33,326 nucleotides of DNA from Bdellovibrionales bacterium (GTDB lineage Bacteria > Bdellovibrionota > Bdellovibrionia > Bdellovibrionales > UBA1609). The stretch spans positions 217,015 through 250,340 of the forward strand of contig JAHDIR010000001.1 of assembly GCA_020630675.1 (NCBI GenBank), given 5' to 3'. This document shows positions 19,192 to 32,017 of the stretch, one piece after another. The notes beneath the pieces were generated by a model. It was not told where the DNA came from. It made no database searches and was given only the letters and a program-made list of their open reading frames with translations. The translations under genes were made by a program, and so were the position numbers. Every line of letters begins with the position of its first letter. The stretch's first letter is position 1.

Positions 19192-19626
19192 ATGGCAGCT
19201 TTTAACCTTTTTTCGCTTCAACTCACTCAAGCCTTCACGATGGCCTTTGTATTTATCGGATTTTTTTTAGCATCTCCCAATGTTTCGGCAGTACCTATTT
19301 CTTTTTATTGCTTTGATCAATCTTATGAACTCAATGAGCTTTGTCTTGATCAGGACGAACAGGCTGTGACCTCTGAGCTAAACTCAAGCCAAGAGTTAGA
19401 AGAAGTTTCCGGACTTGTTTACATTTCTGAAGTTTATGAACTCACAAAGACATTACATAGTATTCACTGCCAATCTGGAGAAGTTCAAGGAACTCTTCTT
19501 GAAGAGCCTTGTAGCAGAAACAACGAAGGTCTTGATATAGGTTTTTTAAGTTTACAAGTTCTTGTGGATAATATGATTTTATCGGAAGATGATTTAACGA
19601 AGATTCAATTGTGTTCTAAAGATTAA
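19192..19626 (+). CDS. unidentified exported cysteine-containing protein
   Basis: 144 residues. A hydrophobic N-terminal segment (about 14-32) ends in NVSA, a good signal peptidase I site, so the mature protein of about 112 residues is probably periplasmic. It has five cysteines (in FYCF, ELCL, IHCQ, EPCS and QLCS), enough for two disulfides. The mature part is acidic. ATG 19192 lacks a well-spaced ribosome binding site; the ATG at 19240 (MAFVFIGFF) would give a more compact signal peptide and is an alternative start. The last 11 bases overlap the end of the gene on the opposite strand. Not recognised. Confidence 0.6.
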   Translation: MAAFNLFSLQLTQAFTMAFVFIGFFLASPNVSAVPISFYCFDQSYELNELCLDQDEQAVTSELNSSQELEEVSGLVYISEVYELTKTLHSIHCQSGEVQGTLLEEPCSRNNEGLDIGFLSLQVLVDNMILSEDDLTKIQLCSKD

Positions 19627-21124
19627 TTGGCTTTTTACACTCTTTATCGCCCAAAGCCAAACAACCTAATATATATTTAAAATAAGTAAAATCGTCATAG
19701 TCTGCTATGTAGGAACTGACATATAAAACCTGATCTTCGTTTGTTTCTATGTATATATTTTTATCATTAAACTGGTCATTAACATTTGAATGACTCACTT
19801 CTGTTTTAACCTGTGTTTTTGTTTTATTGTTAATATAATTTCGAATATTTTGTATTAAACCATCGGTGACTTCTAACTGTAGCTTTATAAGCTGAGACCC
19901 TTTGGCTAAGGTTGAAACAACAGGTTGAGCTAGAAAAAATGACATAAATAGGTTGCTAAGGTATGCCGACCTAGATTTATTGACTCGATCAAATGTTTGT
20001 AATCCACTTAACCAATCCATTATATTTATTTTATAATCTCCAAGAGTAAAATAAGTATCAACTCCAGACTTCAAAAAATAACTCAGACCTAACGAAAACT
20101 TAAAGATAGCCGTCGAGGGAATAAAAGTGGCATAAACTCCGACCGCTAAAAAAGTATTATTGATAATTTGATCTCTTCTTTCTCCTAGAATCATATTATG
20201 TTTAATTTTATTGATCATGGCATTCCAAGAAGAAAGCTTGGCAAAAACTCCATCCCTGGAGTTGTAAAAGTCGTTAAATTCACTTGGGTTAGAGTTATAC
20301 AAAAGTGAGTCGTACAGTAAGGCAATTTTTTGTAAGTCTCGATCTTTTTTAGTATTTTCAATGTGCAATACTCTTTCTTCAAGTAATAAAATATACTTCT
20401 GGTAAGCCTTGGCAATGATGTGAGGGGTGATTGTTGATTGTTCAATAAATAGAATTAGAGGTTCTGCTGCTAATAAGGCCATAATTTGGTTGAGGTAGTA
20501 ACTTCTCAGTTCATCCATTTTTTCATGCATATAATCTTGGAAACCAGGAAAAGCATATAACTTTTCTATATAAGCTAAGTCGACTTTGTGATTAGAAATT
20601 TCACGAGGTGGGTGGTAGCCTTTGTATTCTTTTTGATGTAAACCTTTAGAAATCCAATCGTTTAAAATTTGTCGTTTGTTGGTGTAAAAGAGTGAATTTA
20701 ACTGTTCAAGCTCCTTCTGCGTGTATTTTAACTTTTTCAGTTTGAGAGCTTTAAATGTATTTTTAGATAAAAAATGAACTTTGTAATTCTTTTGGTAGGT
20801 GCCCCAGTTTTTATAAGCTCCAACAAGTAAACGAAATTGACGGTTGGCCCTAATTAACTGAGAAAGTTTTGATTCAAAATAACCTGGTCCTTGCGGGCAA
20901 ACTCTAAATCTAGAAAAACAATGAAATTTTTCCGTTAAATTATCTTGAAAATGAGTGATCTCCTCAACGAGGTAACCTTTTGCTCCTTCAATCATTCTTT
21001 TCTCATGAGAACTGAAGAGTGTGTTTTCTTGCTTTTTGATAGCATAAGATGGAACCAAATGGGTCGCCCAGCTATGAGTGCCCATAAATAAGAATAAAAT
21101 GAGTATTTTCCATAAACGTACCAT
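19616..21124 (-). CDS. unidentified exported protein, 502 residues
   Basis: Signal peptide at about 1-21 (MVRLWKILILFLFMGTHSWA). The long Lys/Tyr/Leu-rich middle (about 30-310) looks mostly helical with coiled-coil character (RLLVGAYKNWGTYQKNY, LEQLNSLFYTNKRQILNDW). Two hydrophobic stretches follow at about 322-350 (FLAVGVYATFIPSTAIFKFS) and 392-410 (LFMSFFLAQPVVSTLAKG). Cysteine pairs occur near the N-terminus (FHCFSRFRVC) and the C-terminus (GCLALGDKEC). No domain is recognised. ATG at 21122-21124 is preceded by GGTGGAG. The tail overlaps the convergent gene by 11 bases. Confidence 0.75.
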   Translation of the reverse strand: MVRLWKILILFLFMGTHSWATHLVPSYAIKKQENTLFSSHEKRMIEGAKGYLVEEITHFQDNLTEKFHCFSRFRVCPQGPGYFESKLSQLIRANRQFRLLVGAYKNWGTYQKNYKVHFLSKNTFKALKLKKLKYTQKELEQLNSLFYTNKRQILNDWISKGLHQKEYKGYHPPREISNHKVDLAYIEKLYAFPGFQDYMHEKMDELRSYYLNQIMALLAAEPLILFIEQSTITPHIIAKAYQKYILLLEERVLHIENTKKDRDLQKIALLYDSLLYNSNPSEFNDFYNSRDGVFAKLSSWNAMINKIKHNMILGERRDQIINNTFLAVGVYATFIPSTAIFKFSLGLSYFLKSGVDTYFTLGDYKINIMDWLSGLQTFDRVNKSRSAYLSNLFMSFFLAQPVVSTLAKGSQLIKLQLEVTDGLIQNIRNYINNKTKTQVKTEVSHSNVNDQFNDKNIYIETNEDQVLYVSSYIADYDDFTYFKYILGCLALGDKECKKPINL

Positions 21125-21532
21125 AAATCAACTCCACCCTTTTTTTTGCAACCTCTTTGCCATTGTTAATTTTGGTAAATAACAAGTAGTTTTAGGTGTT
21201 TATTCAAAATAAATAGATTTTGTTGAGTATAACAAATACAGGGTAGCGACAAAAATAAGCGAGTTTAGGCCACTGTATTGGCTTTGCTGGTTTTTATATT
21301 TTTTTTTGAATTTAAGTTAAACAACATTTTTTTTTCTGTTTTCTAGATTTAGAGCGGGTGTAGGTTTTGTACTTACCTTTAGTCACGTACTGTTTTCACC
21401 AAAGAACTAGATCAAAGTTTATAAATTTCTTTAATATTGCAGAAGTTATAGTCACAATAAAAATAACTTAAATGTTTTTTAAGAGGTATCCGAAGAGACT
21501 TTTGAAAATACTATTTAACTTAGGTGAAGCAA
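21125..21532. other. 408-base divergent intergenic region
   Basis: Separates the exported-protein gene on the minus strand from the beta-barrel gene on the plus strand. It holds a promoter candidate for the minus-strand gene (21179-21207) and a weak plus-strand candidate, TTGCAG (21437-21442) with AAAAAT 16 bases on. T-rich tracts occur at about 21299-21308 and 21328-21337. No open frame of note and no RNA gene was recognised. Confidence 0.5.
21179..21207 (-). promoter_or_regulatory. candidate promoter for the 502-residue exported protein
   Basis: On the minus strand, TTGAAT (21207-21202), 17 bases, TGTTAT (21184-21179), about 55 bases before the start codon. Four of six positions match the -10 consensus. 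Confidence 0.35.
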
Positions 21533-22930
21533 ATGAAAAAAACAAAATTCTTTTTGATCGCATGTTTAAGTTTAACATTTAGTCTGTCATGGGCAAACGA
21601 TGTCGACATCTCTAAAGATAGTCACTTGACAGAAACGGACCTGTCCTATGATGAAAGTAATTTACTTTCAGCTCCAACGACGACAATAAAAGAGTCATTT
21701 ACGAGTGAACTTAAACAAAAAAAATATCCTTTAAACTTGGGGTGGACCAATATTGATGGGGCTGAGTTTTACGAGGTAGAAATTACTCGCGGACGAAACT
21801 GTAGTCGTCGTTACTTTAAAACAGCAAAAAATAATTTGCATATCGAAATTTACCCAAAGGCAAGATACCTTTGGAGAGTTATGGCTTATTCTAACGGAAA
21901 AATTCTGACGGAGTATTCACCTAAGCATAAATTATTTTTAGACTCTCCTTTAGGTGATCATATCACATCTAAAGTAGAAGCCCCTTATGCCAGTGATGAA
22001 CTGTCTTCTGATGAAGGTAGTCAAAACACAGCCTCATGCAGTTACCCCTCTGCTGAAACACTTAATAAAAATGCAGAAGTGAATACTGAGCCTGAAGTTC
22101 CTAAAGAACTTAATAATATAGTAGAAAATACCACAGAGGAAGAGCCGGTAACTACAGCAGCGGCTCCTGTTGTTGAAGAAGAAAAAAAGGTGGATCGTGT
22201 ACCGGCCTATTCTTACGCTAACAAATATTCTTTGTGGGGTAGGTCTTGGGTGAAAGGTGGAGCTAGTTTTAACGGTTATTTTCATAATCAAGATTTAGGA
22301 AGCGGAAATGAAATTACACACGAAACCGTCACAAGCCCTGCTCTTTATGGTGAGTTTGGTACTTTTATTGGTTCAAAATTTGGTCTTGTTATCAATGGAA
22401 CTATTAGTACAGGTGACTTTGAAGATGAAAACGGTCTTATCAAAGAAAGTTATACCACTCAAAGGTTAGCTGCTGAGGCAATTTATTTATTAGGTTCTGA
22501 TTGGAAAACCACTAAAAGTTCACAATTTCATTTAAAATTTGGAATTGGTTACTCTTCAACTCCTATTATTGAGGCTTTATCTGCTACAAATAGTTTTGGG
22601 TTAGTCGATAGTAAGGCCATTACGGTGCGAGCTGGATTAGGTTACAAAAATAGATTTACCAATAAATTTCGTCCTGAATTAGGTTTAACTTTAGCTTATC
22701 CGGTAAGTTTTGCCACCAATGGCAACAGCCTGGAGATTGATAGTGGATACACCATAGATTTTACAGCAGGTATTAACTACCAACTGTACAAGAACTACCA
22801 AATTGGTCTTTTTTGGCAAACAGAAGTTAATAGTCTTGATTATACGCAAGATGATAATTCAAATACCTTGGAGGGTAGTGCTTTTATTATCAATAATCAC
22901 TTAGGGGTTTATTTAGGCCTTGAGTTTTAG
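21533..22930 (+). CDS. outer-membrane beta-barrel protein with N-terminal FN3-like domain
   Basis: 465 residues from ATG 21533. Signal peptide at about 1-20 (ending SLSWA), then a fibronectin-III-like module at about 55-135 (YPLNLGWTNIDGAEFYEVEI and the closing YLWRVMAYSNGK), then an acidic linker rich in Glu, Thr and Pro (about 155-225), then a C-terminal half of alternating beta strands with Gly and aromatic residues, ending LGVYLGLEF with the terminal Phe required for outer-membrane insertion. ATG 21533 has AGGTG at 21522-21526; the in-frame GTG at 21524 overlaps that site and is rejected. Single gene with its own terminator. Role unknown, perhaps cell-surface structure or a porin-like barrel. 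Confidence 0.8.
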   Translation: MKKTKFFLIACLSLTFSLSWANDVDISKDSHLTETDLSYDESNLLSAPTTTIKESFTSELKQKKYPLNLGWTNIDGAEFYEVEITRGRNCSRRYFKTAKNNLHIEIYPKARYLWRVMAYSNGKILTEYSPKHKLFLDSPLGDHITSKVEAPYASDELSSDEGSQNTASCSYPSAETLNKNAEVNTEPEVPKELNNIVENTTEEEPVTTAAAPVVEEEKKVDRVPAYSYANKYSLWGRSWVKGGASFNGYFHNQDLGSGNEITHETVTSPALYGEFGTFIGSKFGLVINGTISTGDFEDENGLIKESYTTQRLAAEAIYLLGSDWKTTKSSQFHLKFGIGYSSTPIIEALSATNSFGLVDSKAITVRAGLGYKNRFTNKFRPELGLTLAYPVSFATNGNSLEIDSGYTIDFTAGINYQLYKNYQIGLFWQTEVNSLDYTQDDNSNTLEGSAFIINNHLGVYLGLEF

Positions 22931-22956: not shown

Positions 22957-22989
22957 AAAAAAGGTCGTTTTGTGAAGCGGCCTTTTTTT
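22957..22989 (+). terminator. rho-independent terminator
   Basis: AAAAAAGGTCG, a 10-base loop, and CGGCC followed by seven T. The stem closes with GGTCG/CGGCC (one G-T pair) and extends through A/T pairs. It lies 27 bases after the beta-barrel gene stop. Confidence 0.88.
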
Positions 22990-23224
22990 ATGTCGTAAGT
23001 ACAGCTAGTTTTTTGTCTGTTTATATTTCTTCGGTCTTGGGCACCTAAGTCTATTATATAATAATTTACAAGCTAAGGGGCTATTAAGCCGAACTGGATT
23101 CAGCTATCATAACAGTACGGGTTAAATAAAAATACTAAAAGTATTTAGTTTTCAATGCTTCAATTGCCAGGTATAGGTGTATATGCATTGAGTTTATTAT
23201 AAATTTTGACTTGCTAGGTAACAA
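22990..23224 (+). promoter_or_regulatory. leader and promoter region of the exporter operon
   Basis: A consensus TATAAT lies at 23057-23062 with no good -35 at standard spacing; the nearest alternative is TTGGGC (23037-23042), 16 bases, TAATAA (23059-23064). Downstream are a small stem GGCT-ATTA-AGCC and a perfect 7-base inverted repeat AAATACT-AAA-AGTATTT (23130-23146). The long leader with inverted repeats suggests regulation, but no named riboswitch was recognised. Confidence 0.3.
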
Positions 23225-24868
23225 GTGGTTGAAAAAAGTTTAAGCCAAATTTTAAAGCCTATCTCAGATATTTTTTATTCTGAAAAGCGCAGTATTAGGT
23301 ACATTATACTACTCACGCTTTTATTTAACCTCTTTCTTTTAATGATTCCCTTTTCTATTCAGGCTTTCATTAATCAACTTGCCATTCAGGTTTATCAAGA
23401 GGCAACACTCGCTTTGTTTGCCGTCTTTTCTGGCTTAGTCATACTGGTGAGTGTTCTTCGCTTGGCTCAAATTGAAGTGGTTGAGAGGCTTGAGCGGCGA
23501 ATTTTTGTGAAAACCTCACTTTATTTTGCTCAATATTTTTCTGCCATAAAAGAAAAAATGTCGGAAGGTAGCTCCTCTCGACAAATCTTTCACCGCTTTT
23601 TTGAAGTGTTTTCTCTTGAAAAAGCCTTTGCTAAAACCTTAGTGGACGGCATTCAATTTATTATGCAGTTTGCAATGGGTTTAATTATAGTTTCATTCTA
23701 TCATCAATTTTTTCTAATATACTCATTAATTCTTCTCGCAACTTTATGGTTATCTATTGTATTAATTTCCCGAAAAATTATTATTCTTGGCCTTAATACC
23801 TCTGACAAAAAATACAACTTTTTAGCATGGTTGGAGCAATTAAGCTTTAACCAAAAGTTATTTTTCTCTAATCAAGGGCAAGATCTTGCTTTAAGAAAAG
23901 TAGAAGAAAAAGTTGATAACTTTCTTTCTTTTCGAGAAAGTTTTTTTAAAAATTACTTTCGACAAGTAAAATGGATTTTTTTAATTCAAATCATTGGAGG
24001 TCTTCTATTTCTTTCTTTGGGTGGTTTTTTAGTTTTTAAACAATTTATCACTTTGGGGCAGTTCATTGCCGCTGAACTCATAGTGACTTACTTATTATTG
24101 GCTTTAGGTAAGTTACCGAGCCTTCTAGAAAGTATTTATGGGGCCATTATTTCTACGCAAAAGCTCTATGGTAAAATATCTGAAGAGCCCGTTAAGTCCA
24201 CGTCTGGGTTAAATTGTTCTAAAAATCCTCACCAGTGGGAAATCAGAGGGCTTTCTCTGCACTCCTCTTCAACAAGAACATTATTTGAAAAATTATCTAT
24301 GACATTTTCTGCGCAAAAACACTCTGCTGTTTTGGCACCAGTTGGAGCCGGTAAGTCTATTTTTTGTCAAATACTGTTAAACCTTGAGGCTCCTATAAGA
24401 GGGGAAGTGTTATTAGATGGGCTTTCTTTAAATTCTTATAACCCAAGAAGTTTACACGAGGCAGTCGCTTTTGTAGGAAGTGATGTTCAGTTTTTTTCAG
24501 GAACCGTTAAAGATAACTTATCTTTTGACACTCACACTGTGAACCATATTCGATCGGTAATGAAATCCTTAGGCTTAATAGGTATAATGAGCGGGTACTC
24601 TCAGCAGTTTGATACCCTCATTTCTCATGATGGGTCTCCTTTGTCTGATAATGAAGCTAAATGTCTTATGGTTTTAAGGGGAGTTTTACAAAACGCTGGT
24701 ACTATTATATTTGATGGTGTTCTTGATGATTTAGAGGAAAACTTGGTTGAAAAGTTACTGAGCTATTTGCGTTTACAAAAAACAACAGTCATAGTCACAA
24801 CAACTAAAGATGTGATCGCTAAAAAAATGGATGGGATTTTTCAATGGAAAAACGAAAAAAATCATTAA
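23225..24868 (+). CDS. ABC exporter protein with a degenerate ATPase domain
   Basis: 547-residue fused membrane plus nucleotide-binding protein of the type I exporter class. Six membrane segments lie at about 26-48, 61-81, 145-163, 164-182, 250-271 and 280-298, with the ATPase-type domain at about 338-547. Walker A is APVGAGKS (371-378), lysine and serine kept, first glycine lost. The other motifs are altered: the Q-loop Gln is Ser (FVGSD), the signature is LSDNE (473-477) instead of LSGGQ, Walker B is IIFDG (Asp497 kept, catalytic Glu replaced by Gly498), the D-loop is DDLE, and the switch His is Thr526 (VTTTK). No peptidase domain is present. The start is GTG 23225 with a modest AGGTAA upstream. 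It heads an operon with adaptor and channel genes. It may bind ATP without hydrolysing it, or use a partner ATPase. Confidence 0.88.
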   Translation: MVEKSLSQILKPISDIFYSEKRSIRYIILLTLLFNLFLLMIPFSIQAFINQLAIQVYQEATLALFAVFSGLVILVSVLRLAQIEVVERLERRIFVKTSLYFAQYFSAIKEKMSEGSSSRQIFHRFFEVFSLEKAFAKTLVDGIQFIMQFAMGLIIVSFYHQFFLIYSLILLATLWLSIVLISRKIIILGLNTSDKKYNFLAWLEQLSFNQKLFFSNQGQDLALRKVEEKVDNFLSFRESFFKNYFRQVKWIFLIQIIGGLLFLSLGGFLVFKQFITLGQFIAAELIVTYLLLALGKLPSLLESIYGAIISTQKLYGKISEEPVKSTSGLNCSKNPHQWEIRGLSLHSSSTRTLFEKLSMTFSAQKHSAVLAPVGAGKSIFCQILLNLEAPIRGEVLLDGLSLNSYNPRSLHEAVAFVGSDVQFFSGTVKDNLSFDTHTVNHIRSVMKSLGLIGIMSGYSQQFDTLISHDGSPLSDNEAKCLMVLRGVLQNAGTIIFDGVLDDLEENLVEKLLSYLRLQKTTVIVTTTKDVIAKKMDGIFQWKNEKNH

Positions 24869-25941
24869 GATCTGTACTTAATGACGAAAGTCGAATTCGT
24901 CGTTTTATGGCTCAGGTTGAAAACCCAAGTTATGTGGCTAAATTTTTAAGTCGTGGTTTAGTTGTGTTGTTTATTTTGTCTTTGGGGCTTATTTTTATAC
25001 CCTGGGTGCAGACGTCTTATGTTAAAGGAAAAGTTATTGGCTTTAGTCATAGCGAGCGAGTCTTTGAAATTCAGGCCCCAATTGAAGGCCGACTTAAGCA
25101 ATGGTTTGTTAAAGAAGGAGAGCAAGTTGCCAAAGGCCAACTTCTTTTAGAACTGGCAGATAATGATCAAGAAATAATAGAACGATTAAAAATGAAGCTG
25201 ATTGCCATAGAAGCTCAACTCAGTGCTATGGATCAAAATGTAAAAACGGCTCAGTTAAATGTTAATCGTCAATCTAGGTTGCTAAAAGAGGGGCTGGCCA
25301 GTCAACTAGATGTAGAAAAAACCAAAATATCTTTAAAAAACCAAAAGGCAAAAAAAGCTAAAGTAGAAACAGAAGAGCAAAAAGTTCGTATTATGTTATC
25401 CCGCCAAAATCAGCTAAAAGTGTATGCCCCTAATGATGGAGTGGTGGTAAGAATTTTAAAAACTTCAGTTGGTGGGTCTCAGTATATTAAAAATGGAGAA
25501 GTTCTTGCTACATTAGCTCCTACTGTTCAGCAAAAGGCCGTTGAGTTTTGGATAGAAGGGAACGACATTCCTTTAATTCATGTTGGGCAAGAAGTACGAA
25601 TGCAATTTGAAGGGTGGCCAGCCATTCAGTTTTCTGGTTGGCCTGAAGCTAGTTTTGGAACCTTTTTAGGCGAAGTTAAGGTCATCGATGCTCTCAGTGA
25701 TCAAGGTGGGAAGTTTCGTGCTCTGATTTTACCTAAAGACGGAGAAGTCTGGCCCCCAGATCAAAGGTTACGGCAAGGAACACTAGTGATTGGTTGGGTA
25801 TTGCTCGGTGAAGTTTCATTGGGTTATGAGTTTTGGCGTCAAATGAATAAGTTTCCAAAAGACTATGTAGGACCAGCTCACCACAAGGAGCAAACGAAAA
25901 CTTCTTCAAAGAAATCTTCTTCAAAAGGAAAGTACAAATAA
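24844..25941 (+). CDS. periplasmic adaptor (membrane fusion protein, HlyD family)
   Basis: 365 residues: short cytoplasmic N-terminus, one membrane helix at about 33-56, first half of a lipoyl domain (FEIQAPIEGRLKQWFVKEG), a helical hairpin (about 110-185, with RLLKEGLASQLDVEKTKI), the second lipoyl half (LKVYAPNDGVVVRIL) and a beta-barrel region. The Lys/Ser-rich tail (KTSSKKSSSKGKYK) is unusual. It bridges the ABC protein to the outer-membrane channel. ATG 24844 lies inside the end of the ABC gene (25-base overlap), with GGATGGGA upstream, and the stop shares one base with the next start (TAATG). Confidence 0.88.
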   Translation: MEKRKKSLRSVLNDESRIRRFMAQVENPSYVAKFLSRGLVVLFILSLGLIFIPWVQTSYVKGKVIGFSHSERVFEIQAPIEGRLKQWFVKEGEQVAKGQLLLELADNDQEIIERLKMKLIAIEAQLSAMDQNVKTAQLNVNRQSRLLKEGLASQLDVEKTKISLKNQKAKKAKVETEEQKVRIMLSRQNQLKVYAPNDGVVVRILKTSVGGSQYIKNGEVLATLAPTVQQKAVEFWIEGNDIPLIHVGQEVRMQFEGWPAIQFSGWPEASFGTFLGEVKVIDALSDQGGKFRALILPKDGEVWPPDQRLRQGTLVIGWVLLGEVSLGYEFWRQMNKFPKDYVGPAHHKEQTKTSSKKSSSKGKYK

Positions 25942-27410
25942 TGAACTCTTTTTTAAGTTCATCCGTTTTTTCTTATTTAATAAAGTTTACCAATATTTTC
26001 TTTATTATATTTTTTAGCCCAATGGCATTTACAGACTCTTCAGAAACTCTAGACAAAAGTAAATCTTCTGTAATTACCGTTAACCATGTGGTGGGTGCCA
26101 TTACAAAAAACAGCCCCTTTTACCAAGAGCTGACATTAAATTTAGATAAAGAAGTTGCTGGTTTGCAGGCAAAGAAAGGAGCTTTTGATACTCAATTAAA
26201 ATCTAAGTATGACTCTATTGATAAAAGCTCTGTTTTTGATGGTTTTCAAGTTTCTTTAGAGCAGCCCCTTGGTTTCGCAGGCACTCAATTGTTTGGAACT
26301 TACCGTACAACCAATGGCTCATTACCTCTTTACTGGGACAAAGATGGAACTAACGCTGGTGGTGAGCTGGCCATGGGGTTGTCTGTAAAGCCTTTGCGAG
26401 GGTTATTTATAGATAAACGACGAGCCAGTTTAAAAAAGCAATCTTTAGCTCTAGAAGGGTTTAGACATGAATTCTCACAAAGTACTCTTGAGTTAATTTA
26501 CAAAGGGTTAGGGCTTTATTATTACTGGGCCTTGGCTCATCAAAAATTAAATGCCTTTCAGCAATTGTTAGATGTGGCTTTAAATCGAGATAGGTGGTTA
26601 AGAGTTCGAGTGAAAAAAGGAGATCGAGCTCGTATTGAAGTTGACGAAAACCAAAGGGTAATTTTAAACCGTCAGGCTGAGGTGGCTAAGCAAAAAACAA
26701 AAGCCCAGCTAGCATTTCGTCAGTTAAATTTGTTCTTAGGTAACCCTTACACCTCAGCTGAGTCGTCCTATCTTCCGGTTCGCTTAAAAGATGATAAATT
26801 TCCATTTCCTATGAAGCTTAGGGGTTTAAGAGCTTGGATCAAAAGTGCTAGTCAGCAAAGGCAGGATTTAAAAGCTTTGTCTTTGAAAATTGAAGAAAAA
26901 AAAGTGGAGTATCGTTTACAAAGTCAAAACCGTCTTCCTGATTTGTCTTTGTCGGGAGCGATGGCTCAGGATAGGGGAGCTTCTCGTGGGGAATTTGACG
27001 GTAATGAAGTTCGTATTCAAGGCACCTTAAGTTTTCCTTTATGGATGCGCGAAGCCCGTGGAAAAACAAGAATGGCTAAGGCAGACGTAGAAATGGCTAA
27101 GGTTAAGCGCCGTTATGGACAGCAAAAAATTGAAACACAATTAAAAAATAGTTGGGACACTCTTGCTTTATTAAAGAAACAACTGTCTCTAAAGCGCCGT
27201 GAAGTTGAATTGTCTGAAAAATTAGAAAAAGCCGAGCAAAAAAGGTTTCGTTACGGTGGCTCATCACTCATAAATATAAATATTAGAGAAACCGACTTCA
27301 TTCGTTCTCAAATTAAATACATAGAAATTCGTGCTCAAAGCCATATTGAGTCTATAAAATTTTATGTCACTGCGGGACAGTTGCCGCCGTCATTGCAGAT
27401 AAGTAAATAA
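25941..27410 (+). CDS. TolC-like outer-membrane channel (outer membrane efflux protein family)
   Basis: 489 residues. Signal peptide ends near SPMAF (about residue 30). Two long helical regions with heptad-like Lys/Glu/Gln runs (about 195-270 and 355-450) surround predicted beta strands (DLSLSGAMAQ, VRIQGTLSFPLWM), giving the repeated helix-strand plan of the family. The late motif EKRFRYGGSSLININIRETDF (here shown as RFRYGGSSLINI) is the usual GxSSLxxxNxRE signature of one exporter-linked subgroup. It forms the exit duct for the preceding ABC and adaptor proteins. ATG 25941 overlaps the adaptor stop by one base, with AAGGAAAG upstream. Confidence 0.87.
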   Translation: MNSFLSSSVFSYLIKFTNIFFIIFFSPMAFTDSSETLDKSKSSVITVNHVVGAITKNSPFYQELTLNLDKEVAGLQAKKGAFDTQLKSKYDSIDKSSVFDGFQVSLEQPLGFAGTQLFGTYRTTNGSLPLYWDKDGTNAGGELAMGLSVKPLRGLFIDKRRASLKKQSLALEGFRHEFSQSTLELIYKGLGLYYYWALAHQKLNAFQQLLDVALNRDRWLRVRVKKGDRARIEVDENQRVILNRQAEVAKQKTKAQLAFRQLNLFLGNPYTSAESSYLPVRLKDDKFPFPMKLRGLRAWIKSASQQRQDLKALSLKIEEKKVEYRLQSQNRLPDLSLSGAMAQDRGASRGEFDGNEVRIQGTLSFPLWMREARGKTRMAKADVEMAKVKRRYGQQKIETQLKNSWDTLALLKKQLSLKRREVELSEKLEKAEQKRFRYGGSSLININIRETDFIRSQIKYIEIRAQSHIESIKFYVTAGQLPPSLQISK

Positions 27411-27432: not shown

Positions 27433-27789
27433 GTGTTTAAAATCATTATTTTTTGGGTTTTATTTGGTACAAATTGGGGTTTGGCTAATTCTTTAGATTT
27501 GAAAATAAGTATCACAGAGAAGGGTGGTGAAAAAATTGTATCAAAGAATATATACGGGGCTTTAACCAAGCAATTAAATATTTTTAAAGTCAGCACTGCT
27601 GATTCTTTGGTGAGTTGCGAAATTAATTTATTTAAAATGAATGAAGATGGCTACCACCCGTTTCAAGTCACTATGATTGATAGCTTACAAAGTGATTCTC
27701 TTGTTTTCTCTCATGGCTTTGAAGTTTCTAACAATATCAATATACTTTTAGTGGGGCCTAAGTACTATTGTGAGCTTGATAAACTATAA
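27433..27789 (+). CDS. small secreted protein at the end of the exporter operon
   Basis: 118 residues starting at GTG 27433, with a strong AGGAGG at 27421-27426. Signal peptide ends GLA (about residue 18). The mature protein of about 100 residues is mostly beta-like, with two cysteines (SCEIN and YYCELD) that could form a disulfide. It follows the channel gene by 22 bases, so it belongs to the exporter operon. It has no RTX repeats or Gly-Gly leader and carries a Sec signal, so it is more likely an accessory periplasmic factor than the exported substrate. Not recognised. Confidence 0.7.
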   Translation: MFKIIIFWVLFGTNWGLANSLDLKISITEKGGEKIVSKNIYGALTKQLNIFKVSTADSLVSCEINLFKMNEDGYHPFQVTMIDSLQSDSLVFSHGFEVSNNINILLVGPKYYCELDKL

Positions 27790-28228: not shown

Positions 28229-28394
28229 ATTTGATAAATCACTGTCATAAAAATTTACACTTTTATTGATTAAAGCCGGTCATTTATTTTTTGTTGATGA
28301 AAATAAGCTCAAATATGACTCTTTTTAGTACAAAGTAGAGTTTCATTTTTGATTGTCTGTTTTACTTGATACACTAAATTATCTTGGGGGATTC
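28229..28394 (+). other. leader region before the lyase-like lipoprotein gene
   Basis: AT-rich with no open frame. Contains GGGGGA (28386-28391), the ribosome binding site that selects ATG 28395. A promoter must lie here if the gene is not read from upstream; the best guess, TTGTCT with TAAATT 16 bases on, is too close to the ribosome binding site to be persuasive. Confidence 0.3.
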
Positions 28395-29669
28395 ATGAGA
28401 GGTTTCAAATTATATTTGAAGTTGTTGGTGGCGTTGGTGTTGGTGTTGGCGTTTCAAAACTGCTCGAGTGAATTTAACTCTAATTTTCAAGATGGCAATA
28501 CTTTGACAAGCACAGTGCCAGAATCCACCTCTATCTCTGAACAAAAAGAACCTTCTCCTCCCAAGAAAGAGGAGCCTCCAGTAAAACCAATACGTGAGAT
28601 AACTTTAAATGGTGAGGGGCAAGTCTTGGATGGCAGTACTCATAACTTTTCATTGAGTGACTCAGGGGCGATCAATGGCGTAACTCGCTATGACATTTGG
28701 ATTGATGGTAAAGACTATTCAACCAGTGTTGTAGCACCGGCCACTTCAGTTGTGGCTTTTGGTTTACCAACAGATGGTAAAGAGCACACCGTTACTCTTA
28801 GACCTCCTGCAGGTTATACAGAAGATGAGTTTACCCCGTTCACAGCTAAATTTATTGCTGCCGATGCCACCGATATTGATGGCGAAATATTCCCTCTTAA
28901 TTTTGGTCATTCAAATATTCCATTTGGTTCTTTAACGAGTGATCACCTAGCAAGCTGGGTGCCAGGCTTACGAGCTTCTCGAAAAAGAGAGCACTTAAGT
29001 GTGGTTATGGAAAATGGCCAAGGGGTGCTTAGGCACAGGTATACGCCCTCTTCAACAGGCTCAGAAAGAGTTGTCTTTCAATATAATATTCCTCATCAAA
29101 GGTCTTACCGTATGAAGTACTCTGTCTATTTTGAACCCGGTTTCAAGTGGGGGAGTCAGTATCAGGGGGGGAAACTTGCCTTTGGTTTTGGTGGTGGAGC
29201 AGCTCCATCGGGTGGGCAAGTGAATTCAGCCGGGTTTACGGCTCGGGTGATGTGGAGAGGAAACTACTTGGGTGGGGGTAAATATGATGGAACGGGCCGT
29301 TTTGTTATGTATACCTACAATGCTGATCGAGATTTGAGTAAAAGTACGGTGGGGTTAGACACTCAGTTTGGAAACTATAGTATTCCTATTGGTCAATGGA
29401 TTGATGTGGTTTTTGAAGTCACTATGAATTCAGCAACTAGTAAATCAGATGGAAGTATGCGCGGGTGGGTGAACGGTAATTTACTGGTAAATAAAGGAAA
29501 TATGAAGTGGTGGGCTAGTGGTGACCAACCAAGAATTGATACTCTTTATTATAGTAGCTTTTATGGCGGTAGTAACGCCGGTTGGGCTCCACCAAATACA
29601 ACCTATATTAAAGTTCGTGATGTTGCTTTTGCCCCGGTGATTAATGGTTTATCGGCGATTTCTCCATAA
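28395..29669 (+). CDS. lipoprotein with polysaccharide-lyase-14-like domain
   Basis: 424 residues from ATG 28395. The hydrophobic signal ends AFQNC with lipidation probably at Cys23. A Ser/Pro/Glu/Lys linker (about 30-65) leads to an Ig-like domain (about 68-158, TLNGEGQVLDGSTHNF). The C-terminal jelly-roll-like domain (about 165-415) has QGGKLAFGFGGG (GGKL at 258-261), RVMWR (284-288), FVMYTYN, IGQWIDVVFEV and a final WAPPNTTYIKVRDV, which match my recollection of the PL14 lyase group (glucuronate- or alginate-cleaving). The substrate cannot be told. It probably sits on the outer membrane and acts on extracellular or prey/host polysaccharide. The in-frame TTG at 28353 is rejected because the GGGGGA site would be inside the gene. 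Confidence 0.7.
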   Translation: MRGFKLYLKLLVALVLVLAFQNCSSEFNSNFQDGNTLTSTVPESTSISEQKEPSPPKKEEPPVKPIREITLNGEGQVLDGSTHNFSLSDSGAINGVTRYDIWIDGKDYSTSVVAPATSVVAFGLPTDGKEHTVTLRPPAGYTEDEFTPFTAKFIAADATDIDGEIFPLNFGHSNIPFGSLTSDHLASWVPGLRASRKREHLSVVMENGQGVLRHRYTPSSTGSERVVFQYNIPHQRSYRMKYSVYFEPGFKWGSQYQGGKLAFGFGGGAAPSGGQVNSAGFTARVMWRGNYLGGGKYDGTGRFVMYTYNADRDLSKSTVGLDTQFGNYSIPIGQWIDVVFEVTMNSATSKSDGSMRGWVNGNLLVNKGNMKWWASGDQPRIDTLYYSSFYGGSNAGWAPPNTTYIKVRDVAFAPVINGLSAISP

Positions 29670-30151: not shown

Positions 30152-30211
30152 TACCCAAAAATGCCGATGAATTGCCATAGAATGGAGTCATAGGTGTATA
30201 AAGGGGGATCT

Positions 30212-32017
30212 TTGAGCTTTAGTCGCATTCATTCATTTTTACTAAAGGTAGCTGGCCCCTTAGTCATTATGCTGGCCTATAACAACTGCGCTCCCTCTTT
30301 TCAAGCAACGGGGGATGGAAGTAGTGCATTTAAATCAAATTCAGGTTCATTAAGCGATGAGCCAGCATTTGTTGGTCCTATGGATGACTTTGCTGGTGGT
30401 AGTCAGCAAAAGTCGATATTGAACACTTTATCCGATGGCTTTAAGTGTAATTCGGTCACAAAAGGGCAGGTGCTTCAAGTTCTAAATTACAATGTTGGGC
30501 CCTTAACCCATCGTCAATATGAATATACAGTTAATAACCTTTTTGGTATTACAGTTTATCCTGATTTAATTAACGATTATAGCAAAGTTTCTTATAATAA
30601 TAGCTTAGGGCGAGTAGCTCCTGGTATCGAGCTTGTTGAAGGTTTTTTCTCAAGCGCAGAGAAAGTATTATCTGCCATTAAGTCAACAGCCGCTGCCAAC
30701 TCTCGTGTATTTAAGTGTTCTAACCCAAACAACGAAAATGAGTGCTTAAGTGAGTTCACAGAAAATTGGGGAAGGCTTTTGTTTCGTCGCCCCCTTTCTT
30801 CAAATGAGTCTCAAAAAGTTTTAGATGTGGCCTTTGACCAAGGTGGTAGCTTAAACAACAAGATGGAAAGTGCACTATATTTATTGTTAGTTTCTCCTCA
30901 GTTTACATATCATTTTTATGGTTTAAACTTGGCCGTGAATAATTCAGACACACAACAAATCGACGAGTATGATTTTGCTAGTAAAATTTCTTTTTTCTTG
31001 TGGGGGCAGGCTCCAGAGGGTTGGCTGCTAGACTTAGCTGAGAATAACCAGTTGAGGCAACAACTACCAGAGGTGGTAGACCGCATGCTAGCTAGTGAAA
31101 AATCAACATATGTTGCCAGAGAGTTAGCTTATAACTGGTTTACTATGGGTAGTTTACGTGAAGTTGGAAATAAAAATTTTGGAGTAGATGGTGTGACAAA
31201 TGATCAGGCCAATTGGAACTTGGCTGAACAAGTTACTCACTTTGTTGATTATCACATTCAAAATAACTTACCGGTTTCTGATTTATTCAATACAGATGTC
31301 ATGTTTCATACAGACAAAACAGCAAAGCTTTATGGTTTAAATAGTAATGGATATAATGGTCAATTTAAAATGGTAAAAACCGGAGACCCAAATAGGTCTT
31401 CTGGTATTCTATCTCATATGGGTTTTTGGGCTAACAACTCATCAAATGGTGAGGTTAATGTTTTTACTCGAGGGCCTATGATAAAAACAAAACTTCTTTG
31501 CGATGTTCCTATTGGAGCTCCCTCTGGTCAGTTGATAGGAACATCTTTGGGAGAGAGTGATACCATTAAGGCGAGTGTAAATAAATTATCACAAGTGGCT
31601 CCATGTTCTTCTTGTCATATCGTGACAGACCCTTATGGGAAAGCTGTAGAAAATTTTGATAGTTTTGGACGCTATCGTGCAAATTACTCAAATGGTGAGG
31701 CTATTAATTACACTCAGTTAACACCAGAAGGTGTTAGTATTAGTTCAGTCAAAGACTTGGGTGTTCATTTCGCTCGCGATAAAAAAGACTTACTTAACTA
31801 CTGTGCGACAAAAAATTTACTGTCTTTAGCTTCAGGAAAAGATCTGTTTGATGATCGCCACATTGGAGCACTTAACTCAGTTGGGTCATGTTATACCCTT
31901 CAGTTTTATGGGCAAAATATCAGTCAAAACCAAGATATTAAAATGAAAGATTTAATTAAAAAAATAATTATTGCTGGCTCTAGCCTTATTGGTCAAACAG
32001 CAAAAGTGAGTGAATGA
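30212..32017 (+). CDS. DUF1592-type (PSD) lipoprotein with one c-type heme motif
   Basis: 601 residues from TTG 30212. The signal segment ends LAYNNC, with lipidation probably at Cys26. Domain order follows the planctomycete-type family: DUF1587-like LTHRQYEYTVNNLFGI, DUF1595-like NWGRLLFRRPLSSNE, DUF1592-like MESALYLLLVSPQFTYHF and FASKISFFLWGQAP, DUF1588-like TRGPMIKTKLLC and the heme motif CSSCH (Cys465, Cys468, His469) followed by DPYGKAVENFDSFGRYR, then a DUF1585-like tail. It lacks the N-terminal cytochrome domain found in many homologues. AGGGGGA at 30202-30208 selects the TTG; the GTG at 30194 is upstream of that site. It overlaps the next gene by one base (TGATG). Biochemical role unknown in the family, probably periplasmic or outer-membrane redox. 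Confidence 0.85.
   Translation: MSFSRIHSFLLKVAGPLVIMLAYNNCAPSFQATGDGSSAFKSNSGSLSDEPAFVGPMDDFAGGSQQKSILNTLSDGFKCNSVTKGQVLQVLNYNVGPLTHRQYEYTVNNLFGITVYPDLINDYSKVSYNNSLGRVAPGIELVEGFFSSAEKVLSAIKSTAAANSRVFKCSNPNNENECLSEFTENWGRLLFRRPLSSNESQKVLDVAFDQGGSLNNKMESALYLLLVSPQFTYHFYGLNLAVNNSDTQQIDEYDFASKISFFLWGQAPEGWLLDLAENNQLRQQLPEVVDRMLASEKSTYVARELAYNWFTMGSLREVGNKNFGVDGVTNDQANWNLAEQVTHFVDYHIQNNLPVSDLFNTDVMFHTDKTAKLYGLNSNGYNGQFKMVKTGDPNRSSGILSHMGFWANNSSNGEVNVFTRGPMIKTKLLCDVPIGAPSGQLIGTSLGESDTIKASVNKLSQVAPCSSCHIVTDPYGKAVENFDSFGRYRANYSNGEAINYTQLTPEGVSISSVKDLGVHFARDKKDLLNYCATKNLLSLASGKDLFDDRHIGALNSVGSCYTLQFYGQNISQNQDIKMKDLIKKIIIAGSSLIGQTAKVSE

Follow-up and report, generated by a model that had tools for sequence, protein, structure and literature searches.

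We analysed a window of 33,326 nucleotides from a Bdellovibrionales genome, the forward strand of which encodes an ABC exporter-like protein, a HlyD-family adaptor and a TolC-family channel in one operon. The features of the locus are as follows:

22959..22990, + strand: terminator-like hairpin with a T run, recognised by eye and not listed by the pattern scan
23225..24868, + strand: pseudo-ABC exporter of 547 aa, with a type I secretion-like TMD and a degenerate NBD
23225..24229, + strand: transmembrane domain (TMD), approximately residues 1-335, six long helices of exporter type
23699..23713, + strand: TM3-TM4 turn YHQFF (YHPxF in the family)
24053..24079, + strand: TM6 family motif LGQFIAAEL, which contains Glu284
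24335..24358, + strand: Walker A-like APVGAGKS, residues 371-378; first Gly replaced by Ala, Lys and Ser kept
24473..24496, + strand: Q-loop region VGSDVQFF; Gln lost (GSD, Q to S)
24638..24661, + strand: signature region PLSDNEAK; LSDNE at residues 473-477, LSGGQ lost
24701..24718, + strand: Walker B TIIFDG, residues 493-498; Asp kept, catalytic Glu replaced by Gly
24719..24739, + strand: D-loop region VLDDLEE; DDLEE where the canonical form is SALD or SAVD
24794..24808, + strand: switch region VTTTK; TTTK, His replaced by Thr
24844..25941, + strand: HlyD-family periplasmic adaptor of 365 aa, with the family motif FEGWPAIQFSGWP
25941..27410, + strand: TolC-family outer-membrane channel of 489 aa (PF02321, OEP), intact

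The exporter gene has an intact frame opening with GTG, its stop is overlapped by the HlyD start over 25 bp, and the HlyD and TolC genes overlap by 1 bp. The first-pass annotation had described an open frame with intact adaptor and channel partners, and this description holds. Such partners in the operon are expected of the type I secretion class. The terminator-like hairpin lies just 3' of the upstream gene, ~235 bp before the exporter start. No second ABC exporter is present in the window (at first pass, no partner ABC gene had been seen nearby), and the other ABC exporters of this genome, which have canonical or near-canonical motifs, are unlinked to the operon. Upstream of the operon are genes for a 502-aa protein (19616-21124, - strand) and a 468-aa outer-membrane-like protein (21524-22930, + strand), both without a Pfam match. 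Downstream are genes for a polysaccharide lyase 14-like lipoprotein (28353-29669, + strand) and a PSD4/PSCyt3 (DUF1592/DUF1588) protein (30194-32017, + strand). A 118-aa open reading frame with a likely signal peptide (27433-27789, + strand) starts 22 bp past the TolC stop; it has no Pfam match, and may be an operon member or cargo.

The NBD is recognised as ABC_tran (Pfam PF00005, E=5e-11) and has the RecA-like fold with Walker A and Walker B (APVGAGKS, IIFD). Motif states were read from an alignment with ten canonical exporters of related genomes, and the departures listed at first pass proved right at every position. The hallmarks of the exporter class, LSGGQ, the Q-loop Gln, the catalytic Glu and the switch His, are all absent (LSDNE, Ser, Gly and Thr, respectively), and the protein lacks a C39 or C39-like domain. 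The AlphaFold model is a confident exporter fold with NBD (pLDDT 89), and its full-length Foldseek matches are PCAT1, HlyB, MsbA and TM287/288 (TM ~0.8-0.86 against PCAT1, HlyB and TM287/288).

The closest relatives of this exporter in 40 related genomes are not ordinary exporters: among them are one with a still more degraded NBD and three TMDs fused directly to HlyD without an NBD. The family was searched for with a profile of the adaptor (A3), the best conserved part of the operon. The window HlyD scores 530 bits against it, and family HlyDs bear FEGWPxxQFSGWP and far outscore other HlyDs. Matches occur in 72 of 369 genomes and 34 of 182 genera of the phylum, and in 10 of 141 genomes of the window's order. 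Six of 299 Pseudomonadota genomes matched at E<=1e-25, all at ~1e-103 or better; with no match between these two values, the family appears sharply bounded. In total, the three-gene operon was found in Bdellovibrionota, Pseudomonadota, Myxococcota, Bacteroidota and Verrucomicrobiota MAGs. The best 80 matches of a scan of public genomes are 80 named loci (at least 80 in total) and include Erythrobacter, Novosphingobium, Sphingobium, Kordiimonas and Corallococcus as well as Rickettsiales and Verrucomicrobia MAGs, some possibly misassigned (one is labelled Rickettsia typhi and two Klebsiella pneumoniae, implausibly). A laboratory strain, Novosphingobium aromaticivorans DSM 12444, also carries a member operon (SARO_RS19820-19815-19810), and an RB-TnSeq library of this strain has been described (PMC11737130). 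Given a seed alignment of degenerate members and a public scan of the best 80 matches, the clean Pseudomonadota score gap argues against, but does not prove the absence of, a missed intact majority. More distant members are encoded on Bacteroidota plasmids (Persicobacter, Aureibacter); we considered them as an intact outgroup and rejected them because their NBDs are degenerate too. In the literature searched, we found nothing on ABC exporters without an NBD alongside HlyD/TolC, or on a family of this kind.

Across 147 loci, the exporter gene encodes TMD plus NBD in 107, TMD alone in 25 and a TMD-HlyD fusion in seven, with the TMD gene unresolved in the remaining eight. One of the fusions is L086/P0005. 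SGGQ occurs in none of 100 distinct family NBDs and the Q-loop Gln in one. The Walker A Lys is kept in 31 of them, the Walker B Asp in 27, the catalytic Glu in 22 and the switch His in 18; 62 have none of these four residues (K/D/E/H). Since the same set of positions is lost family-wide, chance does not explain five altered motifs in a frame that has stayed open. At first pass it had been asked whether homologues conserve these substitutions; aligned relatives show the same kinds of loss. The two nearest relatives of the window gene (L157 and L046, from other genera; support of 99, starred, on the tree) likewise retain Walker A together with the Walker B Asp, carry Gly at the catalytic Glu position and lack the switch His. 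Dead NBDs also have a consensus in common, PLSxxE...LKLAxALLxxPxxLVLSxLFD, which argues that drift is not their source.

Elsewhere in the family the NBD is missing altogether (32 of 147 loci). Nearly all TMD-only genes (23/25) end no more than 12 residues past the TMD match, approximately where the NBD would start; the other two (L154, L172) extend 94-106 residues past it and could be split or frame-shifted genes. Wherever this junction was measured (23 TMD-only loci), the end of the TMD gene runs 4-101 bp into the HlyD gene. A separate, split NBD gene beside TMD-only genes was rejected, as none was seen and the TMD and HlyD genes overlap. Frameshift or assembly error as the cause of NBD loss was rejected based on the many independent genomes and on a TMD-only locus in a single-contig genome (L183). 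On the HlyD tree (a quick search with SH-aLRT support and an undefined root), NBD absence needs at least five changes, three to TMD-only and two to fused forms, each forced by starred branches. The TMD-HlyD-TolC operon stays intact where the NBD is lost, and TolC is retained in nearly every operon.

Low dN/dS had been named at first pass as what a conserved role would predict for dead NBDs, and close pairs of relatives agree with it. The values were calculated by the Nei-Gojobori method for other members, the window gene having no close homologue. For dead NBDs they are about 0.03-0.11, and for NBDs without any of K/D/E/H 0.025-0.10 (L104/L121, 0.025; L113/L114, 0.087; L053/L144, 0.034), comparable to those of TMD and HlyD, although some pairs reach 0.35 and many comparisons are saturated. 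These ratios indicate that the dead NBDs of relatives are under purifying selection. The loss of motifs is old as well as family-wide.

The TMD is the part retained in every relative, NBD-less ones included. Gln46, His160, Lys196, Gln279 and Glu284 (window numbering) are conserved in NBD-bearing and NBD-less members alike (120 members), and the window TMD carries all five. His160, in the YHQFF turn, is 98% conserved in the family and is Ser in HlyB; Glu284, in TM6, is found in 93% of the family, including 27/27 NBD-less members compared, and is Asn in HlyB and ComA. This conservation suggests retained TMD activity, and we infer, at most, that such activity might be ion coupling.

The operon of some relatives, in several lineages, contains or adjoins bicarbonate/CO2 uptake and other inorganic-carbon genes, as confirmed by Pfam. 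DabB-DabA is encoded directly 3' of TolC in three loci (L153, L154, L161), DabA directly upstream of the operon in two (L061, L068), and DabAB divergently, across a LysR gene, in L100/L159. SulP and a beta-carbonic anhydrase are encoded downstream in L171, SbtA upstream in L033, and an overlapping PEP carboxylase in L089. Counted by genus, DabA is found together with the family in 16 genera against 6.4 expected (p=2e-5, confounded by kinship and genome size), and the DabA-linked loci are few and not independent. We rejected SbtA as a general neighbour: only one (G035) of the 59 SbtA-bearing genomes of the phylum has it adjacent, so SbtA alone is weak evidence. The window contains no inorganic-carbon genes, neither DabA nor SbtA was found in its genome, and most family loci, from sphingomonads and others, have no carbon neighbour; the hint is therefore limited to a subset of the family. 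For that carbon-linked branch, the best lead is a function in inorganic-carbon or pH homeostasis. In the literature searched, we found no link of DabA, SbtA or SulP with HlyD/TolC.

Other genes recur near family operons. Beta-carbonic anhydrase genes lie a few genes away in L171 (genome G231), L150, L157 and L083, clearly contiguous and co-directional only in L171. Fifteen family loci have nearby a LysR regulator of a single type, with an NYHHL-like start, and in six loci (L153, L154, L157, L161, L174, L178) a LysR gene recurs together with a conserved protein of ~117-128 aa, for which the one tested had no Pfam match. A sodium:solute symporter gene adjoins the operon in ten loci (PF00474 in two tested), upstream of the ABC gene in L142-L146, L149, L152 and L155 and downstream of TolC in L071 and L164. 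In several branches that are not related to one another, the gene immediately 5' of the exporter encodes an ArsR-type regulator (L074, L078, L116, L158, L179, L182). In Erythrobacteraceae, a conserved opposite-strand gene pair precedes the operon (L067, L079, L090, L094, L115, L117 and other sphingomonad loci), whose products look by eye like a fused DedA-like membrane protein and an oxidoreductase of SelD/NDH type. Type I secretion exporters would be expected to have a linked substrate, either an RTX protein or a double-glycine peptide. The idea of a small secreted cargo conserved in the family was set aside after a scan of ORFs of 45-220 aa near the operon: the matches listed include no small-protein cluster common to the family, and most are antisense ORFs judged spurious, ArsR regulators or lipoproteins specific to one clade.

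We propose that the window gene product, the pseudo-ABC exporter, is the part of a tripartite envelope complex that sits in the inner membrane, and that the family to which it belongs works independently of ATP hydrolysis (probability about 0.72). The other two parts would be the HlyD adaptor and the TolC channel, and the complex as a whole would derive from the exporters of type I secretion. Since the ATPase is always altered, mostly unusable and lost at least five times while its partners are kept, such complexes probably work without burning ATP; this independence is read from sequence, and missing motifs are not proof that ATP goes unused. The conserved, non-hydrolytic role put forward at first pass gains from the complete lack of SGGQ (0/100), from the Glu-to-Gly change and His loss common to the nearest two relatives, and from intact operons that lack the NBD. 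The working part would be the TMD dimer with the adaptor: either a conduit with a gate, or an ion-coupled transporter or anchor for HlyD-TolC. The window branch keeps the Walker A Lys/Ser and the Walker B Asp but has Gly in place of the catalytic Glu. Its NBD is probably a clamp, either ATP-binding or structural; it may still bind ATP and hold the dimer closed, in a structural or regulatory role. In other branches the NBD would be a structural domain, or is gone. Candidate energy sources are none at all, the proton motive force or the cargo itself. A bolder form of this proposal, which we offer only tentatively, is that ATP was abandoned for good, that the TMD, through conserved residues such as Glu284 and His160, turned into an ion-coupled conduit, or a passive gated one, leading to HlyD-TolC, and that one branch works in carbon/pH homeostasis with DabAB, SulP plus carbonic anhydrase, or SbtA.

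It is also conceivable, though unlikely, that the TMD has no transport function and is only an anchor or assembly platform for HlyD and TolC, tethering the inner to the outer membrane. Direct TMD-HlyD fusions and TMD-only forms would suit such a tether, as would an adaptor that is the best conserved part; the five conserved polar residues of the TMD, however, exceed an anchor's needs, and TolC ducts are kept in nearly every operon.

Less probable is an NBD that hydrolyses ATP through unorthodox residues, in which case the protein would be a conventional exporter, of type I or for small molecules. Retention of the Walker A Lys/Ser and the Walker B Asp in the window branch is consistent with this, and 13 of the 100 family NBDs retain all of K/D/E/H, so some branches may still hydrolyse ATP, although in these 13 the signature is altered and the Q-loop Gln absent. 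Against it, the window protein and both of its nearest relatives have Gly for Glu and no switch His, and the same operon is found in relatives without any of K/D/E/H or without an NBD.

We consider it very doubtful that the window protein is half of an asymmetric heterodimeric exporter whose intact half is encoded elsewhere, as in TM287/288, TmrAB and BmrCD, or, as the first-pass annotation had suggested, that it pairs with another ATPase. Degeneracy on one side is a familiar feature of these pairs, and the genome does encode other exporters with canonical or near-canonical motifs. Known pairs, however, are normally co-encoded, whereas these exporters are unlinked, and neither the operon nor related loci encode a competent ABC half. 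An intact partner ABC gene adjacent to the operon was rejected: the 680-aa ABC gene upstream in L058/L062 looks, judged from its sequence, like MacB, a different ABC type. The absence of a co-encoded partner and the existence of NBD-less members, in which the operon has no NBD and TMD-HlyD fusions keep the same gene set, together weaken this explanation; a generic ATPase encoded elsewhere could still serve. Finally, a decaying pseudogene, which the low identity to the nearest relative (34%), the long end branch (0.96) and the absence of the operon from same-genus genomes (adaptor profile search) might suggest, is highly improbable given the intact frame, the overlapping intact HlyD and TolC genes, the confident fold, dead motifs common to two other genera and strong purifying selection on dead NBDs elsewhere; intact homologues in sister species, the sign of decay named at first pass, did not emerge, the same-genus genomes simply lacking the operon.

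ABC transporters are defined by their ATPase. Here, we describe a widespread, selected family that keeps the exporter TMD, adaptor and channel yet repeatedly drops the ATPase, in a stepwise series from a near-canonical NBD through one that is probably ATP-binding but hydrolysis-dead to motif-less, absent and fused forms. ATP-free work by an ABC-exporter TMD becomes directly testable through this family. Its proteins are labelled "ABC transporter ATP-binding protein" in public genomes, and their function is thus probably misassigned. The link to DabAB and carbon uptake is a new lead on bacterial CO2/bicarbonate handling across two membranes.

Several known systems resemble this one in part. DabAB, SbtA and SulP carbon uptake systems are encoded in or beside the operon of relatives in several lineages; to our knowledge, these systems do not use HlyD or TolC. 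TM287/288, TmrAB and BmrCD are, like the window protein, exporters of the type IV fold with a degenerate ATP site, but the window operon encodes no catalytic partner and relatives of its exporter can lose the whole NBD. MacAB-TolC and the RND and MFS tripartite pumps are built from the same combination of inner-membrane component, adaptor and TolC as an envelope-spanning duct, and the RND and MFS pumps run without ATP; here, in contrast, the inner-membrane part is an ABC-exporter TMD rather than MacB, RND or MFS. The type I secretion exporters (HlyB, PrtD and the ComA/PCAT class) have the same ABC, HlyD and TolC gene set and a GQL motif in TM6 that is also found in the family. The best PDB matches of the TMD profile are ComA and HlyB, and the model of the window protein can be superposed on PCAT1 and HlyB. 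The differences lie in the missing C39, LSGGQ, Q-loop Gln, catalytic Glu and His of the window protein, in the NBD-less family loci, and in Glu284 and His160 where HlyB has Asn and Ser.
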